The notes below the pieces were generated by a model that searched no databases, was not told where the DNA came from, and was given only the letters and a program-made list of their open reading frames with translations. From Nothopassalora personata (taxonomy: Eukaryota > Ascomycota > Dothideomycetes > Mycosphaerellales > Mycosphaerellaceae), in contig CM066291.1 of the NCBI GenBank assembly GCA_033816765.1, positions 3,038,001 through 3,102,000 on the forward strand: 64,000 bases of DNA, read 5' to 3'. Both the position numbers and the translations under genes were made by a program. Below are positions 14,548-24,821 of this stretch, one piece after another (the first letter of the stretch is position 1; each line of letters starts with the position of its first letter).

Positions 14548-14552
14548 GGTAG

Positions 14553-14710
14553 TGTAAGGGGCGAGCCCTTGCATCTTGGCACGGGCTGAGCCCGTGCGGA
14601 CCTGACTCCGTTTTCTTTGTTCCGGGCTTCGCTCGGTTTTCTCCTTCTTCTGTATCGAACTTATTGCATACCACACAGAACCTCAGTGTACACGTCGTTC
14701 ACCCGTGACA
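14553..14710 (+). repeat. 5' LTR of the intact chromovirus
   Basis: 158 bp, starts TGTAAGGGGCG and ends CCCGTGACA. It contains a perfect 8-bp inverted repeat with a 3-base loop at 14579-14597. The predicted RNA start (by analogy with Tf1 self-priming) is at 14654, giving U3 of about 101 bases and R plus U5 of about 57. Confidence 0.95.
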
Positions 14711-14711
14711 T

Positions 14712-14721
14712 TAAGTTCGAT
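14712..14721 (+). promoter_or_regulatory. Self-priming primer-binding site
   Basis: TAAGTTCGAT, one base after the 5' LTR, is the exact reverse complement of ATCGAACTTA at 14654-14663 inside the LTR. This is the layout of Tf1-type elements, where the 5' end of the RNA folds back and primes minus-strand synthesis instead of a tRNA. No CCA-type tRNA complement is needed. The ten-base match is seen directly; the mechanism is inferred by family. Confidence 0.7.
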
Positions 14722-14765
14722 CCATTCGAATCAACCAGGCACCCGCCATCAAAGAGACGGAATAC

Positions 14766-17700
14766 GTGATGGCGTCGTCGGGTAGCGAGAACCCCGGGGT
14801 TGGTGCCTCGAATGAAAATTTTCAGCTTATGCTCGAGCAATTGTACCAGCGACAGGAAGAGATGCAGGCCGAACTGATTGCAACGCGCGCCGCCTTGAAA
14901 GAGTCGGAAGACGCTCGACGTCAGTCAACCCCTGCAGTCTCACTACCAGTTCCGGACGACGCGTCTACTGGTGACCTAATGAGACAGTTGCTGCAGACGC
15001 TGAATGCCGCCGCGAACGCGCCGCGCAGCGGCGGAGAACCGTCGGGTCCCAGAGGCTGGAACCCGCCCTCATGGGATGGCAAAGCCGAAACATTCAGGGA
15101 CTACTTCCTAAGGTTGAAAAGTTCCTTCAGGGTGCGTTCCGCACTGAAACCGACGCTCTCCAATGAATTCTACTGGGACGCGATCAACGACACGTTGCTA
15201 GCGAGGGAGCGCACGAGGATGCGGCACTTCTGGGACAAGGGAGACGGTGAACTTGGGAAGGACCCCGTTGCTTTCTTTGCGCAACTCGAAAAGGTCTTTG
15301 GCGATAGCAATGAACGCGCCAAGGCTCTAGAACAACTCACCAAGATTAGACACGTGAACGGACAACCGTGGCACGATCACCAGATGAAATTCGACGGACT
15401 CCTGTTGACCGCCGGCGGAGAAGACTGGAGCAATGACGCGAAGATCGGCTACCTCCGCAACACCTTCTCGAATCCCGCCAGAATGTATACGGCAGCCATG
15501 CCGAAAAAGGAGGATTACTACGAGTTCGCAGAGGAGGTTAAGCGGATCATGACCAACCTCGAGGACACAGACCAGTTTAGAATAGCCCACAAGAAGTGGA
15601 AGGACAACAACAAGGACTCCAGTGCGACCACCACGGTTACCACTCGTTCTTTTGCGGGACCTACCGTTACCCGGGTGGACCATGATGGTGACACCATCAT
15701 GGCACCAACCCGAACGAACGGAGGCCGCTCTAGAAGTCGTGGAGACCGGAAGGAGGACAAGGGGAAGCAGAGAGCGAAATGGGTCGACACCGCTGAGAGA
15801 GATCGAAGGCGCCAAGAACAGCTCTGTTTCCGTTGCGGAGCGAGCGGGCATCGAGTGAAGGAATGTCCGTACGCCGCAGCAGTCAACCCCACCAAGATCA
15901 ACGCAGCCTCAGTTGCGCCGATCCTGGAAGACGACGGGTTTGGGAAAAGACTAGCTCCTGGGCGAAAGCCAGCACCAGGAGACAAAGAAGCACTGGTAAA
16001 GGGGTGGAACGCTGCCAAGAGTTCTATGAACGGGAACCTTGTATATACCGACTTACTCCTGAACGAAAGTTACGGCACGTTTGCCCTTATCGATGAAGGA
16101 TGCATGTGTTATGCTGTAATTAACGGAGACCTAGCGAAAGGACTCGGTCTCACGTATGTCAGCAACGAGAGCCGCAAGGCTACAGGGTTCACCAAAGCGA
16201 TGCGAAACTCGATTGAAGGAGTAGTTGCTTTCCACATGGAAATCGCCGGCATCCACGAGGTCGTGTACGCATACGTCGTGCCCGACTTGGACTTCCCGAT
16301 GATTCTGGGGAACCCTTGGAAAGCGCACAATCAAATCCGAACTGCGCCAGAAAAGCACCGGTACTACCACGGTTTGGCAAAGAAATGGGTGCCCGAAGGA
16401 CGCAACCATAAAGAACGCGAGGCGGGCGAACGTTTTGCTACGATCGCCGCGGCAACCGTGGAGGACATCAAGAAAGCCCTGAGCAAGAAGGAACCGCCCA
16501 CGAGGGAGGAGCTCAAAATGAAGCTGCCTCCGGAACTTTGGGACATGATCCCACTCTTTTCCACGCGGGAAGCCGACAAGCTCGCGCCCCATCGTGGGGA
16601 ACTTGACCACAGGATCGAGATCCGGACGAAACCAGACGGATCGCAGGAGCCACTGCCCTGGGGACCGTTGTATAGCATGTCGAAAGACGAGCTGCTGGTG
16701 CTACGCAAGTCGCTAACCGAGCTGCATCGCAAGGGATACATCCGTCCCTCCACCTCAGAAGCGGCGGCCCCCGTCCTGTTTGTGAAGAAGCCCGGAGGAG
16801 GACTACGCTTTTGCTGCGATTATAGGGCGCTGAACGCGATTACGAAGCAAGATCGCTACCCGCTGCCTTTGATCCCGGAGACCATCCGAAATCTAACGGG
16901 AGCCAGATGGATGACGAAGGTGGACGTAGTTGCCGCGTTCCACCATCTCCGGATGGCAAGAGGCGAGGAGTACAAGACCGCGTTTAGAACGAGATTTGGC
17001 CTGTGGGAGTGGTTGGTGTGTCCGTTTGGTTTGTCCGGGGCGCCGGCAACTTTCCAACGGTATATTAACAGTTTGCTGCGGGAACACCTGGACGACTTCG
17101 CCTCTGCATACGCTGATGACGTAGTGATCTACTCGGATGGGTCGAAGGAGGACCACTTCAAGAAGGTTCGCATCGTTCTCCATAAGCTTTGGGACGGAGG
17201 CCTGTTCTTAGATCCAGGTAAATGCGAGTTCGCACAGAAGAAGATCAAGTACCTAGGGTTCATCGTCCACGCCGACGGAAAGGGGGTGGGACCAGACCCG
17301 GAAAAGGTGGATGCCGTACGGGACTGGAAGACGCCCGTCACTCAGAAAGAAGTGCGTCGTTTCCTCGGGTTCGCGAATTACTACAGAATGTTCATCCCCA
17401 ACTACTCGAAGTTGGCCGAACCCTTGACGTCGCTGACGGGAAAGAAAACGCCGTTCTCCTGGGGGAAACGTCAGGAGGACGCCTTTCAGGCCCTGAAGAG
17501 GAAGTACTGTGAAGCTCCTGTGCTGGCCCATTGGAACCCGGAGCTTCCCACCTTTTTGGAGACGGACTGCAGTGGATTTGCCCTGGGTGGCGCTCTCCTG
17601 CAAGAAAAGGACGGGGTAGTGAAGCCGGTAGGGTTCTACTCAAAGAAACTGAATAAGGCTGAGATTAACTACGACATCCATGACAAAGAGATGCTCGCAG

Positions 17701-19748
17701 TAGTCTCCTGCCTCAAAGAGTGGGCCCCCGAGCTGAAAACGTGTGGTCCCTTTACAATTTGGACGGACCACAAGAACCTTGAGTACTTTATGACAAAGAG
17801 GCAGTTGTCTGAGAGGCAGATCAGGTGGGTGGAGCACATCGCGTTGTTTCAGTTTACCCTGGTATACAGGCCGGGCGCCGAGGCAATTGTGCCGGATGCA
17901 TTGTCACGGAGGGAGCAGGATACGCTCGGCCAGGACGACAAATTGTCGCGTTTTCGCAGGTTCTTGCGGCCGGATGCCATACGCAATTGGCCGGCTCCAG
18001 GGGGGGAAGGCGAGGTGGTAGCAGATGCACCTTCATCCGCTACGATGGTTTCATCGGTCCAGATTATGGCCACCCAATTCGGAGTCGACTCCACCGAGAA
18101 AACGTCGGACTCACCGGGCGCATCATCGGGCCCCTTCACAGATCCAGAATTGAACGAGATCTGGAGGAAGACCGCCGATGAAGACAGCACGTTTCAGGCA
18201 GTACTCCACGCAGTAAGAACCGGGGCGCGTTCACTCCCGAGCGAAGTGAAGCTCAAGGTACAAGCCGGTGACTGCAGCATCGACGACAACGGACACCTGC
18301 GGCACCGCGGAAGAATCTGGGTGCCGGGAGCCCCAGCAACGACGGAAGCCGACTACAAAGAGGCGGGCGCGGAGATATTGCAGAACGATGTCCTGCGGAC
18401 GAAGCTCATCCAGTCCGTTCATGATTCACCGGTCTACGGCCATCCAGGCAGGGACTCCACAGCGTCTATCTTGAGACGTAACTTTTACTGGCCTCTACAG
18501 TCAAGGCACGTGAGACAGTTCTTGAGGAACTGCGATCACTGTGGGAGAAATAAGGTATGGAGGGAGCAAAAGCATGGACTCCTTCAGCCTTTACCGGTAC
18601 CCGATCGTTTCTTCCAGGAGATCTCTATGGATTTCATGACGGACATGCCGGAGTCGCAGGGAAACACTTGCTTGTGGGTAATCAAGGACAGACTGAGCAA
18701 GACCGTCGTCTTGGAAGCGATGTCCACCATGAAAGCGGAGGACTGCGCCGAGAGATTCCTGGACTGCTGGGTGAGATACTACGGGATTCCTAAGGCCATC
18801 ACGAGCGATAGAGGCACGAACTGGACAAGCACATTCTGGAAGACATTCTGTCGTTTAACCGGCGTGAAGCAGAGACTTAGCTCCGCCTACCACCCACAAA
18901 CGGACGGAGGGCCCGAGAGGTTGAACCAAGAAGTGCAGGCGTACCTTCGGAATTATGTCAACCACGAGCAGTCCGATTGGAAAAAGTGGCTCTCCACCGC
19001 TCAGCTGGCGCTGAACGGACGGTACCAAGCGGGCCTAGGCATGAGCCCCTTCTTTGCCGTCCACGGTTACGAAGCGCCATTCCCCGTCCAGTTGCAGCCG
19101 GACTCAACGACTTCGTCGCTGGATGCCGCCAAACGGGCAACGCTCTTTGTGGAAAGGATGCAGCAGATCACGGACCTGTGCCAAGCGAGCATGGCGGACT
19201 CCGCCCAGGAGCAAGAGGAGAGCGCCAACAAAGATCGGAAGCCAGCGCCGATTTATCGGGTCGGTGACAAGGTGTGGCTGGATCTAAGGAACTACACTAC
19301 GACCCGGCCGAAGAAGAGTATCGACCATAAGCACGCAAAGTACACGGTGGCGGAGGTCATCTCACCGCTGTCCATCCGATTGTCAGGGATCCCCGATGGA
19401 ATCCACCCGGTCTTTCACCCAGACTTGTTGCGACCTGCAAGCCAAGACCCGTTGCCTGGACAGGAGATCGACGACAAACAGCCGGACCCCATCCTCATTG
19501 AATCTCATGAGGAATGGCATGTAGAGGAGATTCTCTGCGCCAGAACCAAGGCGAAAGGGAGGGGCAAAGCACGCGAAGTCCTAGTGAAATGGACTGGATA
19601 CCACAAGCCTACGTGGGAACCATTGGAGTATCTAGCGGACACAGCTGCAGCAGACGACTTTGAGAAAAAGCACGGCAACCCGATGACGCACGATGGACCA
19701 AGGCAAGCATGGGAAGTCAAGAAGAAGGGCAGGGCGACAGGTAAGTGA
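14766..19748 (+). CDS. Gag-Pol polyprotein of the chromovirus
   Basis: One ORF of 1,660 residues with no frameshift between gag and pol. In order: coiled N-terminal gag; CCHC zinc knuckle at Cys354-Cys357-His362-Cys367; retropepsin-like segment with the unusual triplet Asp443-Glu-Gly instead of D-S/T-G; reverse transcriptase with YADD at 782-785; RNase H with ETDCSG near 932 and TDHKNLEY near 1000; integrase zinc domain His1219, His1226, Cys1256, Cys1259; integrase core Asp1289, Asp1348, Glu1384, where the last two are separated by exactly 35 residues (DD35E); and a C-terminal chromodomain starting near Trp1584, which classifies it as a chromovirus. Gag and Pol are probably made as one chain, as in Tf1. 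All catalytic positions except the protease triplet are standard. Confidence 0.95.
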   Translation: MMASSGSENPGVGASNENFQLMLEQLYQRQEEMQAELIATRAALKESEDARRQSTPAVSLPVPDDASTGDLMRQLLQTLNAAANAPRSGGEPSGPRGWNPPSWDGKAETFRDYFLRLKSSFRVRSALKPTLSNEFYWDAINDTLLARERTRMRHFWDKGDGELGKDPVAFFAQLEKVFGDSNERAKALEQLTKIRHVNGQPWHDHQMKFDGLLLTAGGEDWSNDAKIGYLRNTFSNPARMYTAAMPKKEDYYEFAEEVKRIMTNLEDTDQFRIAHKKWKDNNKDSSATTTVTTRSFAGPTVTRVDHDGDTIMAPTRTNGGRSRSRGDRKEDKGKQRAKWVDTAERDRRRQEQLCFRCGASGHRVKECPYAAAVNPTKINAASVAPILEDDGFGKRLAPGRKPAPGDKEALVKGWNAAKSSMNGNLVYTDLLLNESYGTFALIDEGCMCYAVINGDLAKGLGLTYVSNESRKATGFTKAMRNSIEGVVAFHMEIAGIHEVVYAYVVPDLDFPMILGNPWKAHNQIRTAPEKHRYYHGLAKKWVPEGRNHKEREAGERFATIAAATVEDIKKALSKKEPPTREELKMKLPPELWDMIPLFSTREADKLAPHRGELDHRIEIRTKPDGSQEPLPWGPLYSMSKDELLVLRKSLTELHRKGYIRPSTSEAAAPVLFVKKPGGGLRFCCDYRALNAITKQDRYPLPLIPETIRNLTGARWMTKVDVVAAFHHLRMARGEEYKTAFRTRFGLWEWLVCPFGLSGAPATFQRYINSLLREHLDDFASAYADDVVIYSDGSKEDHFKKVRIVLHKLWDGGLFLDPGKCEFAQKKIKYLGFIVHADGKGVGPDPEKVDAVRDWKTPVTQKEVRRFLGFANYYRMFIPNYSKLAEPLTSLTGKKTPFSWGKRQEDAFQALKRKYCEAPVLAHWNPELPTFLETDCSGFALGGALLQEKDGVVKPVGFYSKKLNKAEINYDIHDKEMLAVVSCLKEWAPELKTCGPFTIWTDHKNLEYFMTKRQLSERQIRWVEHIALFQFTLVYRPGAEAIVPDALSRREQDTLGQDDKLSRFRRFLRPDAIRNWPAPGGEGEVVADAPSSATMVSSVQIMATQFGVDSTEKTSDSPGASSGPFTDPELNEIWRKTADEDSTFQAVLHAVRTGARSLPSEVKLKVQAGDCSIDDNGHLRHRGRIWVPGAPATTEADYKEAGAEILQNDVLRTKLIQSVHDSPVYGHPGRDSTASILRRNFYWPLQSRHVRQFLRNCDHCGRNKVWREQKHGLLQPLPVPDRFFQEISMDFMTDMPESQGNTCLWVIKDRLSKTVVLEAMSTMKAEDCAERFLDCWVRYYGIPKAITSDRGTNWTSTFWKTFCRLTGVKQRLSSAYHPQTDGGPERLNQEVQAYLRNYVNHEQSDWKKWLSTAQLALNGRYQAGLGMSPFFAVHGYEAPFPVQLQPDSTTSSLDAAKRATLFVERMQQITDLCQASMADSAQEQEESANKDRKPAPIYRVGDKVWLDLRNYTTTRPKKSIDHKHAKYTVAEVISPLSIRLSGIPDGIHPVFHPDLLRPASQDPLPGQEIDDKQPDPILIESHEEWHVEEILCARTKAKGRGKAREVLVKWTGYHKPTWEPLEYLADTAAADDFEKKHGNPMTHDGPRQAWEVKKKGRATGK

Positions 19749-19971
19749 CGGATTGCGGGTCAGTTGACATGAGCACAGGCGTTTGGGAGCAGGAGTCAGA
19801 TTGAGAGCACGTGAGAAAAGGAAAAAGTTTTAAAGAATTTCATTCATTCATGCCGCCAAAAGGCAGCGGGGCCCGACCAAAAAGAAGCGGAGGCCGGCCC
19901 ACCCCATACGGGGATGGCAAAAGCATTGTGATGGCCCGACCGCGGCCCGCGCGAAAACCACCGGAGACCAC

Positions 19972-20596
19972 TCAAGACATGTCGCGGCGGGTGCCAAGGC
20001 GGAGGGCAGGAGGGACGGGGCCGCTGGAAAATGATCGGTCAGCGACGTCTTTCAATCGGGGTGCAACACTTACGAGCCAGCTTGCGCGTTGATGGCTCCC
20101 TCCATGGAGCCAGTGACCTGAGCAGCCACAGGACTGAGAGACGGTTAGCGATGGTTTTCAATCGGAGACCGGTGGAAATTACCCGGACAGCAGACCATCG
20201 GACTCGAGCTTGGAGAGTGGGCGCCAAGCCTTGATAACCTTCTTGAGATTGTCGAGTTTGGTGCTTTTCAGGCGTTAGCCGACGGAAAACGATCGCAGGC
20301 CGGAGACTTACGCCTTGGAAGCGTTGCCGGCACGGGTCCAGGCCGCGTACGCCTTGTGGCAGAGTGCTGGGCTGTGGGGGGTTAGCGGAGTCCGGTCGAA
20401 AGGGGTCGGAGAGCGACTCACAGCGGGCGGCAGCGCTTCTGAAGGCGGCGGCACTCGTCGCAGCTGCGGACTTGAGTGGCGGCCTGCGGATGTTTGTGAG
20501 CGGAGTCCGGCTGGAAAACGTCGGACTCAGGCGTCTTACGGCAGGGCCCACGCAATCGCGGCCAGAGTTGGCGCACTCCAGGCAGTGGTAGAGCAT
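19972..20596 (-). CDS. Multi-intron antisense gene in the chromovirus, Zn2Cys6-like
   Basis: Read on the strand opposite to gag-pol. Six exons: 20596-20540, 20483-20422, 20371-20312, 20263-20183, 20133-20074 and 20023-19972. The five introns are 56, 50, 48, 49 and 50 nt, each starts GTAAG/GTGAG/GTAAT and ends AG, and each has a CTAAC, CTCAC or CTGAC branch site 10-20 bases before the end. After the first (phase 0) the four others are all phase 2. Joined, they give 123 residues. Cys5, 8, 15, 27, 30 and 37 form C-x2-C-x6-C-x11-C-x2-C-x6-C, the spacing of fungal Zn(II)2Cys6 clusters, built from two exons. The rest is basic and helical, then Ala/Gly-rich. A further intron-like segment, 20656-20605, lies directly upstream, so transcription probably starts beyond 20656; the start codon is uncertain. 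I know no named family for it. Confidence 0.6.
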
Positions 20597-20927
20597 GTTT
20601 TCTGCTGGAAACCAGTTAAAAAGCATCGGAGGCCGGCTCAAAAGAATCGGACTTACTTGATGGTATTGATTGAAGATGTGGTGTTTGGAGGCTGTTGTGT
20701 TGTTGGTGCTGGAATCCGGTTAGTTTCTGTCGGAGCGCGGCGAGAAGGAATCGGATCGAGGGCGAAGGGGATCGTAGAGAGGGGCGGAGGTGATAGGGCT
20801 AGTGGAGGAAGAGGAGGGAGGGTGCTGTCAAGGGGTGTGTTCACATACATTCGCTTAATGGTTGCCGAGCAAAAAAAAAAAGGGTAAAAAAAAAGAGGAA
20901 GCTATCCGGTAGATATATTCTGGAGTC

Positions 20928-20972
20928 CTATTGTTCACATGTGACAATAGCCATTGTCACATGGGTAACAAT
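20928..20972. promoter_or_regulatory. Compound palindrome upstream of the antisense gene
   Basis: A near-perfect palindrome at 20928-20950 (CTATTG arm, TCACATGTGA centre, CAATAG arm) is followed at 20951-20972 by a second, imperfect copy of ATTGTCACATG...AACAAT. It sits between the polypurine tract and the antisense gene, where a promoter for minus-strand transcription would be expected. It could bind a dimeric regulator; this is inference. Confidence 0.35.
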
Positions 20973-21090
20973 ACGAAACCTCACACTCACCTAGGCAACA
21001 ATACCACAACACAGCGACGGCGGGACCCGACAATGAAGGCACGGCCTTCGACGGCGACAACAAGCAGGCGGAGGAGACGCTGCAGGCGGC

Positions 21091-21106
21091 GGAGGGGAGG
21101 GGGGGG
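21091..21106 (+). promoter_or_regulatory. Polypurine tract of the chromovirus
   Basis: An uninterrupted run of 16 purines, mostly G, three bases before the 3' LTR. This is the expected primer for plus-strand synthesis. Confidence 0.85.
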
Positions 21107-21109
21107 TAA

Positions 21110-21267
21110 TGTAAGGGGCGAGCCCTTGCATCTTGGCACGGGCTGAGCCCGTGCGGACCTGACTCCGTTTTCTTTGTTCCGGGCTTCGCTCGGTTTTCTC
21201 CTTCTTCTGTATCGAACTTATTGCATACCACACAGAACCTCAGTGTACACGTCGTTCACCCGTGACA
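21110..21267 (+). repeat. 3' LTR of the intact chromovirus
   Basis: 158 bp, identical by eye to the 5' LTR, ending CGTGACA and followed by the target duplication GGTAG. Confidence 0.95.
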
Positions 21268-21272
21268 GGTAG

Positions 21273-23684: not shown

Positions 23685-24478
23685 ATAAAACTATAGAACA
23701 AAGTTAAAATAGACTTTATTATAGAACTCCTACCGTTAAAGGATTAAGTTATAGAATAACTATACAACATAATACTAGTTATAGCTAATAGACCTACGAG
23801 ATACGTACACTTTATTTCTATATTAGAGACATATAATATAGAGTAGCTCGGATACCTTGTACTAGATAGACTTATCTAATACTATAGATTCTCTTAAGTA
23901 TTTATAACGGATAGAGATAAGCTATTTATATTAAATTACTAGAAAATACTTATAAGAACAATCGGAATTAAACCTAAGCTATTAATAGCGTATTATCTAG
24001 AAATAGATAGATAAACTAAAAGGATAGACTAAATGCTAGAATAATACCTACGACATTACATTGACTACGTATAAGACAACTAGGTTTTATTGCTACTAAT
24101 TGTATAGATTATACTAAATAACTATAAATTAGAGACACCTTTAGCGATACTATTTTACACGAACTTTAGTAAAGATCCTAACCTATTTAGAATACCTAGA
24201 TTCTACCTATAGACCGAAAGAGTAATTACAATAACGGATACTCTTAAGAAAGTATATAAAGAAACACGTAAGGCAATTAAATATATATAACAAAACTATC
24301 TTAATAGCGGTAAGATATAAGAAAAATAGTACCTCTACTAAAGAAGGGGGATAAGATCTATCTCCTTATAAAAAACTTAAGAATAAGAAGATAGACTAAG
24401 AAAATAGATAACATTAAGGTTAGACTATTTTTACCGATAAAGTTATAGGATTAGTTAACTACTACCTACGACTACTAC
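23685..24478 (+). mobile_element. Fragment of an older chromovirus, integrase region
   Basis: About 790 bp closely similar to 30,350-31,145 of the better preserved element (integrase core to just before the chromodomain), but with more C-to-T changes. It ends abruptly where a different LTR begins at 24479, so a second family inserted into it. Confidence 0.8.
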
Positions 24479-24650
24479 TATAAGGGTAGCCTATAGCTAA
24501 TTCTTATATATAATACGGCTATGCCCGGCTTAGTATACCGTACGTAATACGTATACGTATACTAGAAGACGCGTATAGCGTCTATAGAAGAAAGTAAGCT
24601 TTAGTTTATCTACGATTAGAAGATCGTAGGCGTACTATATATTGCGATAT
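24479..24650 (+). repeat. LTR of second family, copy 1
   Basis: 172 bp beginning TATAAGGGTAG (probably TGTAAGGG before RIP) and ending GCGATAT. It is directly followed by copy 2 with no spacer. The first bases resemble the start of the intact chromovirus LTR. Confidence 0.7.
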
Positions 24651-24821
24651 TATAAGGGCAGCCCATGGCTAACCCTTATATATAATGCGGCTATGCCCGG
24701 CTTAGTATACCGCACGTAACGCGTATACGTATACTAGGAGACGCGCATAGCGTCTATAGAAGAAAGTAAGCTTTAGTTCATCTACGATTAGAAGATCGTA
24801 GGCGTGCTATACATTACGACA
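24651..24821 (+). repeat. LTR of second family, copy 2
   Basis: 171 bp from TATAAGGGCAG to ATTACGACA. It is about 90 percent like copy 1 by eye and similar to copy 3 at 32970-33147. It is probably the 5' LTR of the element that continues with the gag relic downstream. Confidence 0.75.

Follow-up and report, generated by a model that had tools for sequence, protein, structure and literature searches.

The DNA analyzed here, referred to as the window, is a 64,000-nt stretch of Nothopassalora personata CM066291.1 (parent genome, 54.5 Mb), and all positions given are those of the window. A Ty3/gypsy chromovirus spans positions 14553 to 21267, with a pair of LTRs, a TSD (GGTAG at 14548-14552 and 21268-21272, from which the outer LTR edge was placed), and an integrase followed by a chromodomain within a gag-pol frame of 1660 codons (Table 1). 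An antisense gene occupies the minus strand in the interval from pol to the 3' LTR. The initial annotation had described an intact chromovirus with a gene antisense downstream of pol, and the identical LTRs, the TSD, and the single gag-pol frame bore this out. Among the best 120 of 4704 polyprotein relatives, the named ones (approximately 59 to 64% identity) were mostly from ascomycetes, for example, Berkeleyomyces, Colletotrichum, Chaetomium, and Purpureocillium, members of the Sordariomycetes; one relative was labelled Trifolium, and metagenome relatives reached up to 85% identity. The viral contigs scanned with the polyprotein gave no match. Elsewhere in the window, 24476-24819 consisted of two 172-nt units in tandem that were 91% alike.

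Table 1. Features of the element and of its antisense gene (window positions; introns are numbered 1 to 6, the 5'UTR intron being intron 1)
Feature	Position	Strand	Remarks
5' LTR	14553-14710	+	158 bp, identical to 3' LTR
gag-pol, single frame	14766-19748	+	Zinc knuckle, RT, RNase H, integrase, chromodomain
Five-triplet lattice stretch	19867-19911	.	Downstream of antisense stop, outside introns
Coding exon 6 and stop	19972-20023	-
Intron 6, 50 nt	20024-20073	-	One CCG-N12-CGG pair, ending in exon 6
Coding exon 5	20074-20133	-
Intron 5, 49 nt	20134-20182	-	Lattice; first triplet at end of exon 4
Coding exon 4	20183-20263	-	LxxVxKAWxxLxxL stretch, partly kept in family B
Intron 4, 48 nt	20264-20311	-	Lattice only with mismatch
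Coding exon 3	20312-20371	-
Intron 3, 50 nt	20372-20421	-	Lattice CCG-N12-CGG-N3-CCG; acceptor lost in 11 of 17 copies
Coding exon 2	20422-20483	-	Second C-x2-C-x6-C (CDECRRLQKRC)
Intron 2, 56 nt	20484-20539	-	Lattice CCG-N12-CGG-N3-CCG
Coding exon 1, MLYHCLECANSGRDCVGPA	20540-20596	-	First C-x2-C-x6-C
Intron 1 (5'UTR), 52 nt	20605-20656	-	Branch TTAAC; lattice CCG-N12-CGG-N3-CCG
5'UTR exon, proximal end	20657-20678	-	Aligned in L056 and L057
Probable antisense promoter block	20890-21010	-	Five ACAAT/ATTGT sites and palindrome
3' LTR	21110-21267	+	Identical to 5' LTR

The antisense gene and its sister family

From the start ATG at 20596, six coding exons (20596-19972, minus strand) joined into 123 codons and one stop, reproducing the earlier model of six exons and five introns of 48 to 56 nt, each with a branch site (CTCAC, CTAAC, CTAAC, CTAAC, and CTGAC, in the order of coding introns 2 to 6, as read from the sequence). 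Two features were added to that model, a 5'UTR intron (20656-20605) and a conserved upstream block (21000-20941). When the criteria for the five coding introns were applied, chains of even three introns were found in none of 1000 dinucleotide shuffles, and a chain of five was found in 1 of 210 window tiles on both strands, that tile being the gene itself. By sequence alone, the GC-rich stretch leaves several splice chains open, some longer than 123 amino acids (aa). On the window sequence, were intron 3 to end at 20367 instead, the product would have 164 aa, an unchanged six-Cys start, and a different C-terminus, and reading through into intron 3 would meet an immediate stop and leave a putative 40-aa six-Cys peptide. 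We preferred the 123-aa chain over these alternatives because it aligns with the sister family, family B.

Family B carries the same antisense gene in the same genome in RIP-mutated form and was read at three loci, L056, L057, and L059 (L059 being 93% identical to L057 and 91% identical to L056). A search with L057 gave at least 40 full-length places, namely, L057 itself and 39 others at 94 to 96% (40 of 203 candidates scored). Pol residues 741 to 1648 were 72.7% identical between family B and the family of the window element (family A). The TA/AT index was 1.5 to 2.4 in the three family B loci versus 0.62 in the antisense stretch of the window. Strong RIP mutation was likewise seen in one old family A copy (L055), and no such signal was seen in the window element or in L054; together with the 98 to 100% likeness of 17 family A copies, this means that family A either has moved after the last action of RIP or escapes it.

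The introns of L059, placed by eye, measured 52, 52, 52, 56, 51, and 55 nt, and two of the six donors were weak (GTATAT and GTAGAC). With the family B introns so placed, the first five coding junctions had phases 0, 2, 2, 2, and 2 in both A and L059. The A and B proteins, with stops read as X, aligned with a score of 162 (maximum of 1000 shuffles, 29.5) and had the same residue at 41 of 99 aligned codons; conservation at codon positions 1 and 2 was not significantly better than that at position 3 (P = 0.19). L059 retained Cys at five of the six cysteine positions, and the remaining one was a Tyr codon, for which RIP could be the explanation. Because the sister family shares the gene, the intron phases, and an alignable protein, we consider the antisense gene almost certainly real and old. 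The analysis also supports the proposal of the initial annotation that the introns survive because antisense introns stay in the genomic RNA.

In the comparison of A and B over 21060-19921, the best conserved 60-nt bin was 21000-20941 (82%). ACAAT/ATTGT sites, possibly of the HMG-box type, numbered five in 21010-20890 versus 0.63 expected (0 of 1000 shuffles), and 1 of 528 window tiles held as many. A palindrome around GTGACAAT-N4-ATTGTCAC was present there and in L059 too. The antisense gene probably has its own promoter at about 20890-21010. That the upstream block was better conserved than the bins over the exons is also what would be seen if the antisense RNA were what matters, the block driving a spliced transcript that runs antisense to the 3' end of the element and lowers sense expression or feeds RNA interference, and the protein being a relic. 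We regard this as rather unlikely, as the alignable protein and the intron phases kept across families would be needless for an RNA-only role.

The stretch might instead be occupied by an env-like gene on the sense strand, where a 190-aa open reading frame (20315-20887) scored 130 against a sense frame of B (maximum of 200 shuffles, 61). However, the better part of this match lay over the antisense 5'UTR and its intron and was conserved as DNA. The length of 190 aa was kept in 2 of 18 copies (window included), with an early stop in 14 and a shifted, run-on frame in 2, and the B frame contained many stops. With its length so seldom kept and the B frame so interrupted, we rejected the sense frame, and an env-like gene is highly improbable.

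The predicted protein and its variation among copies

Exons 1 and 2 together encode cysteines 5, 8, 15, 27, 30, and 37, confirming the spacing C-x2-C-x6-C-x11-C-x2-C-x6-C given in the initial annotation. Both half-clusters fit the Cys spacing of the fungal Zn2Cys6 cluster (PF00172; six cysteines, C-x2-C-x6-C twice). The full 123 aa matched no Pfam family at an E value of ≤1. In native order, the first 40 residues reached 14.3 bits on the Zn_clus profile versus a cutoff of 21, with the second C-x2-C-x6-C placed on the first part of the profile in the best stretch. When the halves were exchanged, a 41-aa peptide scored 21.0 bits, equal to the cutoff, and a second peptide with a shorter join scored 16.9 bits. 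Two of eight exchanged peptides with shuffled non-Cys residues also matched (19.1 and 14.4 bits), so the Zn_clus match mostly reflects cysteine spacing. No Pfam match was obtained for peptides of family B, whether in native order or with the halves exchanged. Among solved structures, the exchanged peptide aligned along LAC9 (E = 0.75) and the native peptide aligned to AlcR (E = 0.63), neither significantly. The product thus differs from PF00172 in halves that look swapped and in a native-order score below the cutoff; it looks like a zinc cluster with swapped halves and is no demonstrated member. Of the earlier assignment to the zinc-cluster regulators, the spacing stands and a link to DNA binding is plausible from the sequence, whereas Zn2Cys6 membership was not sustained at 14.3 bits.

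The database search for relatives of the 123-residue product proposed in the initial annotation retrieved 155 candidates with shared words and no relative at an E value of ≤1, and a search with the alignment of A and B retrieved 328 candidates and none at an E value of ≤10. A protein search of the same genome for a host gene of origin returned element copies and one further match, L058 (E = 0.15), which was rejected because its translation has no such cysteine pattern.

We then compared the copies of the young family. In the genome, the antisense stretch was present in 18 full or near-full copies, of which 17 had 98 to 100% identity (window included); the 18th (L055) was RIP mutated and 86% identical. 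A gag query gave the same 17 young copies and none other at that identity, and the count is therefore not a product of the antisense query. By their TSDs, the 17 copies represent 12 independent insertions: six copies at C1:5.714-5.776 Mb (L046 to L050 and L053) share one TSD, with a spacing of approximately 10.77 kb within each orientation, and are a single insertion that has multiplied into an array, both tandem and inverted, with three copies per orientation. LTR pairs were identical in the window and in 15 of the 16 near copies compared. L053 (C1:5756900-5765300) had many single-base indels in both the antisense gene and gag-pol, perhaps an assembly error.

All splice sites and the 123-codon frame were intact in 5 of the 12 insertions (window, L039, L040, L041, and L054). 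A one-base deletion, with further loss in L052, abolished the intron 3 acceptor in six insertions (11 copies), in which use of the next acceptor, at 20367, would yield the predicted 164-aa product. L042 had a stop in exon 5, the nonsense codon in 1 of the 12 insertions. The reading frame of exons 1 and 2, with all six cysteines, was maintained in 11 of 12 insertions and, within the amplified twelfth, in five of its six copies, and the cysteines were unchanged in 16 of 17 copies, the exception being L053. Variation was assessed across the 11 insertions in which gag-pol was full, with L054 excluded and the array represented by a single copy. The antisense coding exons showed 10 nonsynonymous and 2 synonymous changes (12 of 372 sites), gag-pol showed 13 nonsynonymous and 9 synonymous changes (22 of 4983 sites), and the introns varied at 2 of 305 sites. 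Coding exons were thus more variable than gag-pol (odds ratio, 7.5; P = 1.4e-6), and antisense nonsynonymous variation (10 of 278 sites) exceeded both intron variation (P = 0.017) and silent variation in gag-pol (9 of 1126 sites; P = 0.0013). The ratios of nonsynonymous to synonymous changes in the antisense gene and gag-pol were not significantly different (P = 0.25). No purifying selection on the antisense product was visible in the young family, and no present constraint could be seen on its C-terminal half.

The initial annotation had looked to other copies for conserved splice sites and cysteines and for a dominance of synonymous changes. The first two exons and their cysteines answered to this; the intron 3 acceptor and the reading frame in L042 did not, nor were synonymous changes dominant. 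Such a pattern could arise if a once useful accessory gene were decaying in the young family and were now inert, its survivors being hitchhikers. The lost acceptors, the nonsense codon, the 10:2 ratio, and the excess variability of the coding exons are in line with decay. However, the nonsynonymous excess over intron and gag-pol silent change fits fast evolution equally well, and six cysteines unchanged in all but one copy argue against decay, which we judge unlikely. Decay and fast evolution both fit the coding changes. The apparently unconstrained coding changes and the acceptor broken in half of the insertions are equally points for a role of the antisense RNA itself.

Phased CGG and CCG triplets

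The introns were similar to each other beyond shuffles in A (10.9 versus 6.4; 0 of 300 shuffles) and in L059 (7.7 versus 6.2; 0 of 300), and the exons of A showed no mutual similarity beyond shuffles. RNA hairpins were rejected as the cause, with fold z-scores of -0.09, -2.21, -0.38, 0.13, -1.44, and 0.80 for introns 1 to 6 and notable folding in intron 2 only. The similarity is due to a triplet pattern, CCG-N12-CGG-N3-CCG, with a period of 21 nt. Within 19760-21100, CGG-N3-CCG occurred 7 times versus 0.57 expected and CCG-N12-CGG 10 times versus 0.54 expected (each 0 of 500 shuffles). Distances in 19760-20760 followed the same lattice, with 15 cases of CCG followed by CCG at 21 nt, 8 at 14 nt, 7 at 7 nt, and 6 at 42 nt. 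For CGG followed by CCG, there were 6 cases at 6 nt and 4 at 27 nt; for CCG followed by CGG, there were 9 at 15 nt, 4 at 36 nt, and another 4 at an off-lattice distance of 22 nt. When all trinucleotide pairs at all spacings were scanned without bias, the top pair was a lattice pair in A, L057, and L059, equalled in 0, 0, and 1 of 200 shuffles, respectively; 3 of 60 other window tiles outscored A, each by way of a spacing-1 pair (for example, GGG-GGG).

Of 23 lattice triplets, 12 lay in introns, 7 downstream, 2 upstream, and 2 in exons. Between A and L057, with C>T/G>A differences set aside, 29 of 32 intronic triplet bases were kept (91%) versus 104 of 183 other intron bases (57%); versus other G/C bases only (52 of 82), the difference held (P = 0.005), and with C>T/G>A included, the figures were 29 of 36 versus 91 of 182. 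In L055, a close old copy, triplets were conserved no better than the rest (P = 0.38). Lattice pairs numbered 15 in 19749-20750 versus at most 4 in any of 56 1-kb tiles outside the element. The array is thus enriched in the noncoding parts of the element, and there was a weaker excess in gag-pol and the LTR: 10 versus 1.58 in the second half of pol (17801-19748; 0 of 300 shuffles), 4 versus 1.31 in gag, and 2 versus 0.14 in the LTR plus leader. The gag-pol excess may stem from codon periodicity. An exact motif centred on TTTT gave zero matches, the element included, and was discarded as badly drawn.

It is rather unlikely, in our estimation, that the lattice does not consist of binding sites at all and that the introns share descent from a single introner-like unit or were left by the decay of a 21-nt tandem repeat. 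Introns that resemble each other while the exons of A do not would be expected from such an origin, but the lattice extends outside the introns (11 of the 23 triplets), TRF found no tandem array, and the triplets stay while the spacers drift. Moreover, of the 39 places in the genome that matched one intron motif, 36 belonged to element copies, giving no hint that it had spread into host genes; a set of unrelated genes with nearly identical introns was not found with this motif.

Zn2Cys6 proteins bind CGG triplets, and the arrangement seen here is of the kind used by host zinc-cluster factors. Fixed triplets, drifting spacers, and a period of two helical turns would give the look of an array of sites bound by a dimeric zinc-cluster protein. 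The lattice could equally serve a host factor, as no observation links it to the element protein in particular. That a host Zn2Cys6 regulator binds it and the antisense protein is unrelated would also accord with the weak native-order Zn_clus match of that protein. Genome-wide, however, the four-triplet pattern occurred at 161 places (9 for a reversed control), and the 50 listed of these revealed no host regulon: by coordinates, 10 fell in copies of A and 16 in those of B, whereas 23 more resembled B in sequence and one (C2:2524871) was left unassigned. We consider binding by a host regulator quite unlikely. The available text of PMC5412356 yielded no CGG triplets.

A possible self-addressed regulator and known systems

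From the observed gene structure, sister-family conservation, and triplet lattice, we infer that a zinc-cluster-like protein encoded by the element may act on sites in its own gene. We favor this reading tentatively, at below even confidence, because of the look of the triplet array, the two zinc-cluster-like halves, and the precedent of VANC21; that all 17 young gag copies found belong to copies with the antisense stretch was also counted for it. Its more specific form, in which a permuted zinc-cluster DNA-binding protein and a cognate 21-bp-phased intronic operator make up a self-addressed regulatory or anti-silencing system, is possible but somewhat doubtful. The readings that invoke self-addressed regulation, antisense RNA, decay, an introner-like origin, and a host factor overlap in part, and the rivals remain live. 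The suggestion in the initial annotation that the element regulates itself gains from the 21-nt CGG/CCG lattice, the mechanism itself staying conjectural.

Under self-addressed regulation, an old, intron-rich accessory gene on the minus strand would be driven by its own promoter (approximately 20890-21010), and its spliced mRNA would encode a small protein of the nucleus, with six cysteines in the first 40 residues as zinc ligands. This module, zinc-cluster-like with its halves in swapped order, would recognize CGG/CCG triplets, the targets being those that recur every 21 nt, or two helical turns, within the introns and UTRs of the antisense gene itself. The protein would thereby mark its own element and either tune antisense and sense transcription or keep the copy from silencing. 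Introns would be kept both because antisense introns are not removed from the genomic RNA and because they give room for binding sites. The C-terminal half would be an effector part which some active lineages do without, it being supplied in trans or dispensable.

The brtn gene of Boty-like elements was reportedly described by Zhao et al. 2011. According to the available parts of four papers, these elements of Botrytis cinerea, which like the present one are fungal and have a gag-pol with a chromodomain, carry brtn in antisense orientation in the region that separates pol from the 3' LTR (PMC8365987, PMC7264820, PMC4227169, and PMC5987419). We liken the two by position only, and no database protein matches the product from the window. 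The antisense gene is thus, as far as these texts go, not unprecedented in kind. Our literature search, with most subscription journals outside its scope, found no description of this gene or of a permuted zinc cluster; the earlier statement that no description had been published may thus hold for this gene but, given brtn, not for its kind.

Antisense open reading frames of plant LTR elements (Grande gene23, RIRE2, and Retand TRP28) are alike in position and orientation, and the accessible text describes an own promoter and a nuclear protein for Grande and predicted DNA binding for TRP28; it reports no six-intron structure or six-Cys module (PMC7264820 and PMC11963269). The function of antisense genes of LTR elements is stated there as not known (PMC7264820). 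HBZ of HTLV-1 is another antisense retroelement gene whose product acts on transcription, as far as the sections consulted go, but it is a bZIP protein of an animal retrovirus with the antisense promoter inside the 3' LTR (PMC8622228 and PMC7264820). A parallel to self-addressed regulation is offered by the VANC anti-silencing proteins of the VANDAL transposons: VANC21, itself encoded by a transposon, is described in the portion of the source available as binding a short motif arrayed in noncoding parts of its own transposon, including the VANC21 introns (PMC5735166). VANC belongs to plants and to another element class; binding and anti-silencing by the element in the window are conjectural.

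If self-addressed regulation were true, it would represent convergence with the plant VANC systems and would supply a reason for introns in a retroelement. The conserved, phased candidate target sites make the function of the antisense gene testable by one binding experiment, and natural copies that keep one splice acceptor can readily be compared with those that lack it. Among the copies, 20 extra nt were present at gag-pol position 1175 (window position, approximately 15941) in 4 of 16 (L040, L041, L044, and L051), setting gag and pol in different frames. This addition was unlinked to the state of the intron 3 acceptor (two copies with it and two without), an indication that copies have recombined with one another.
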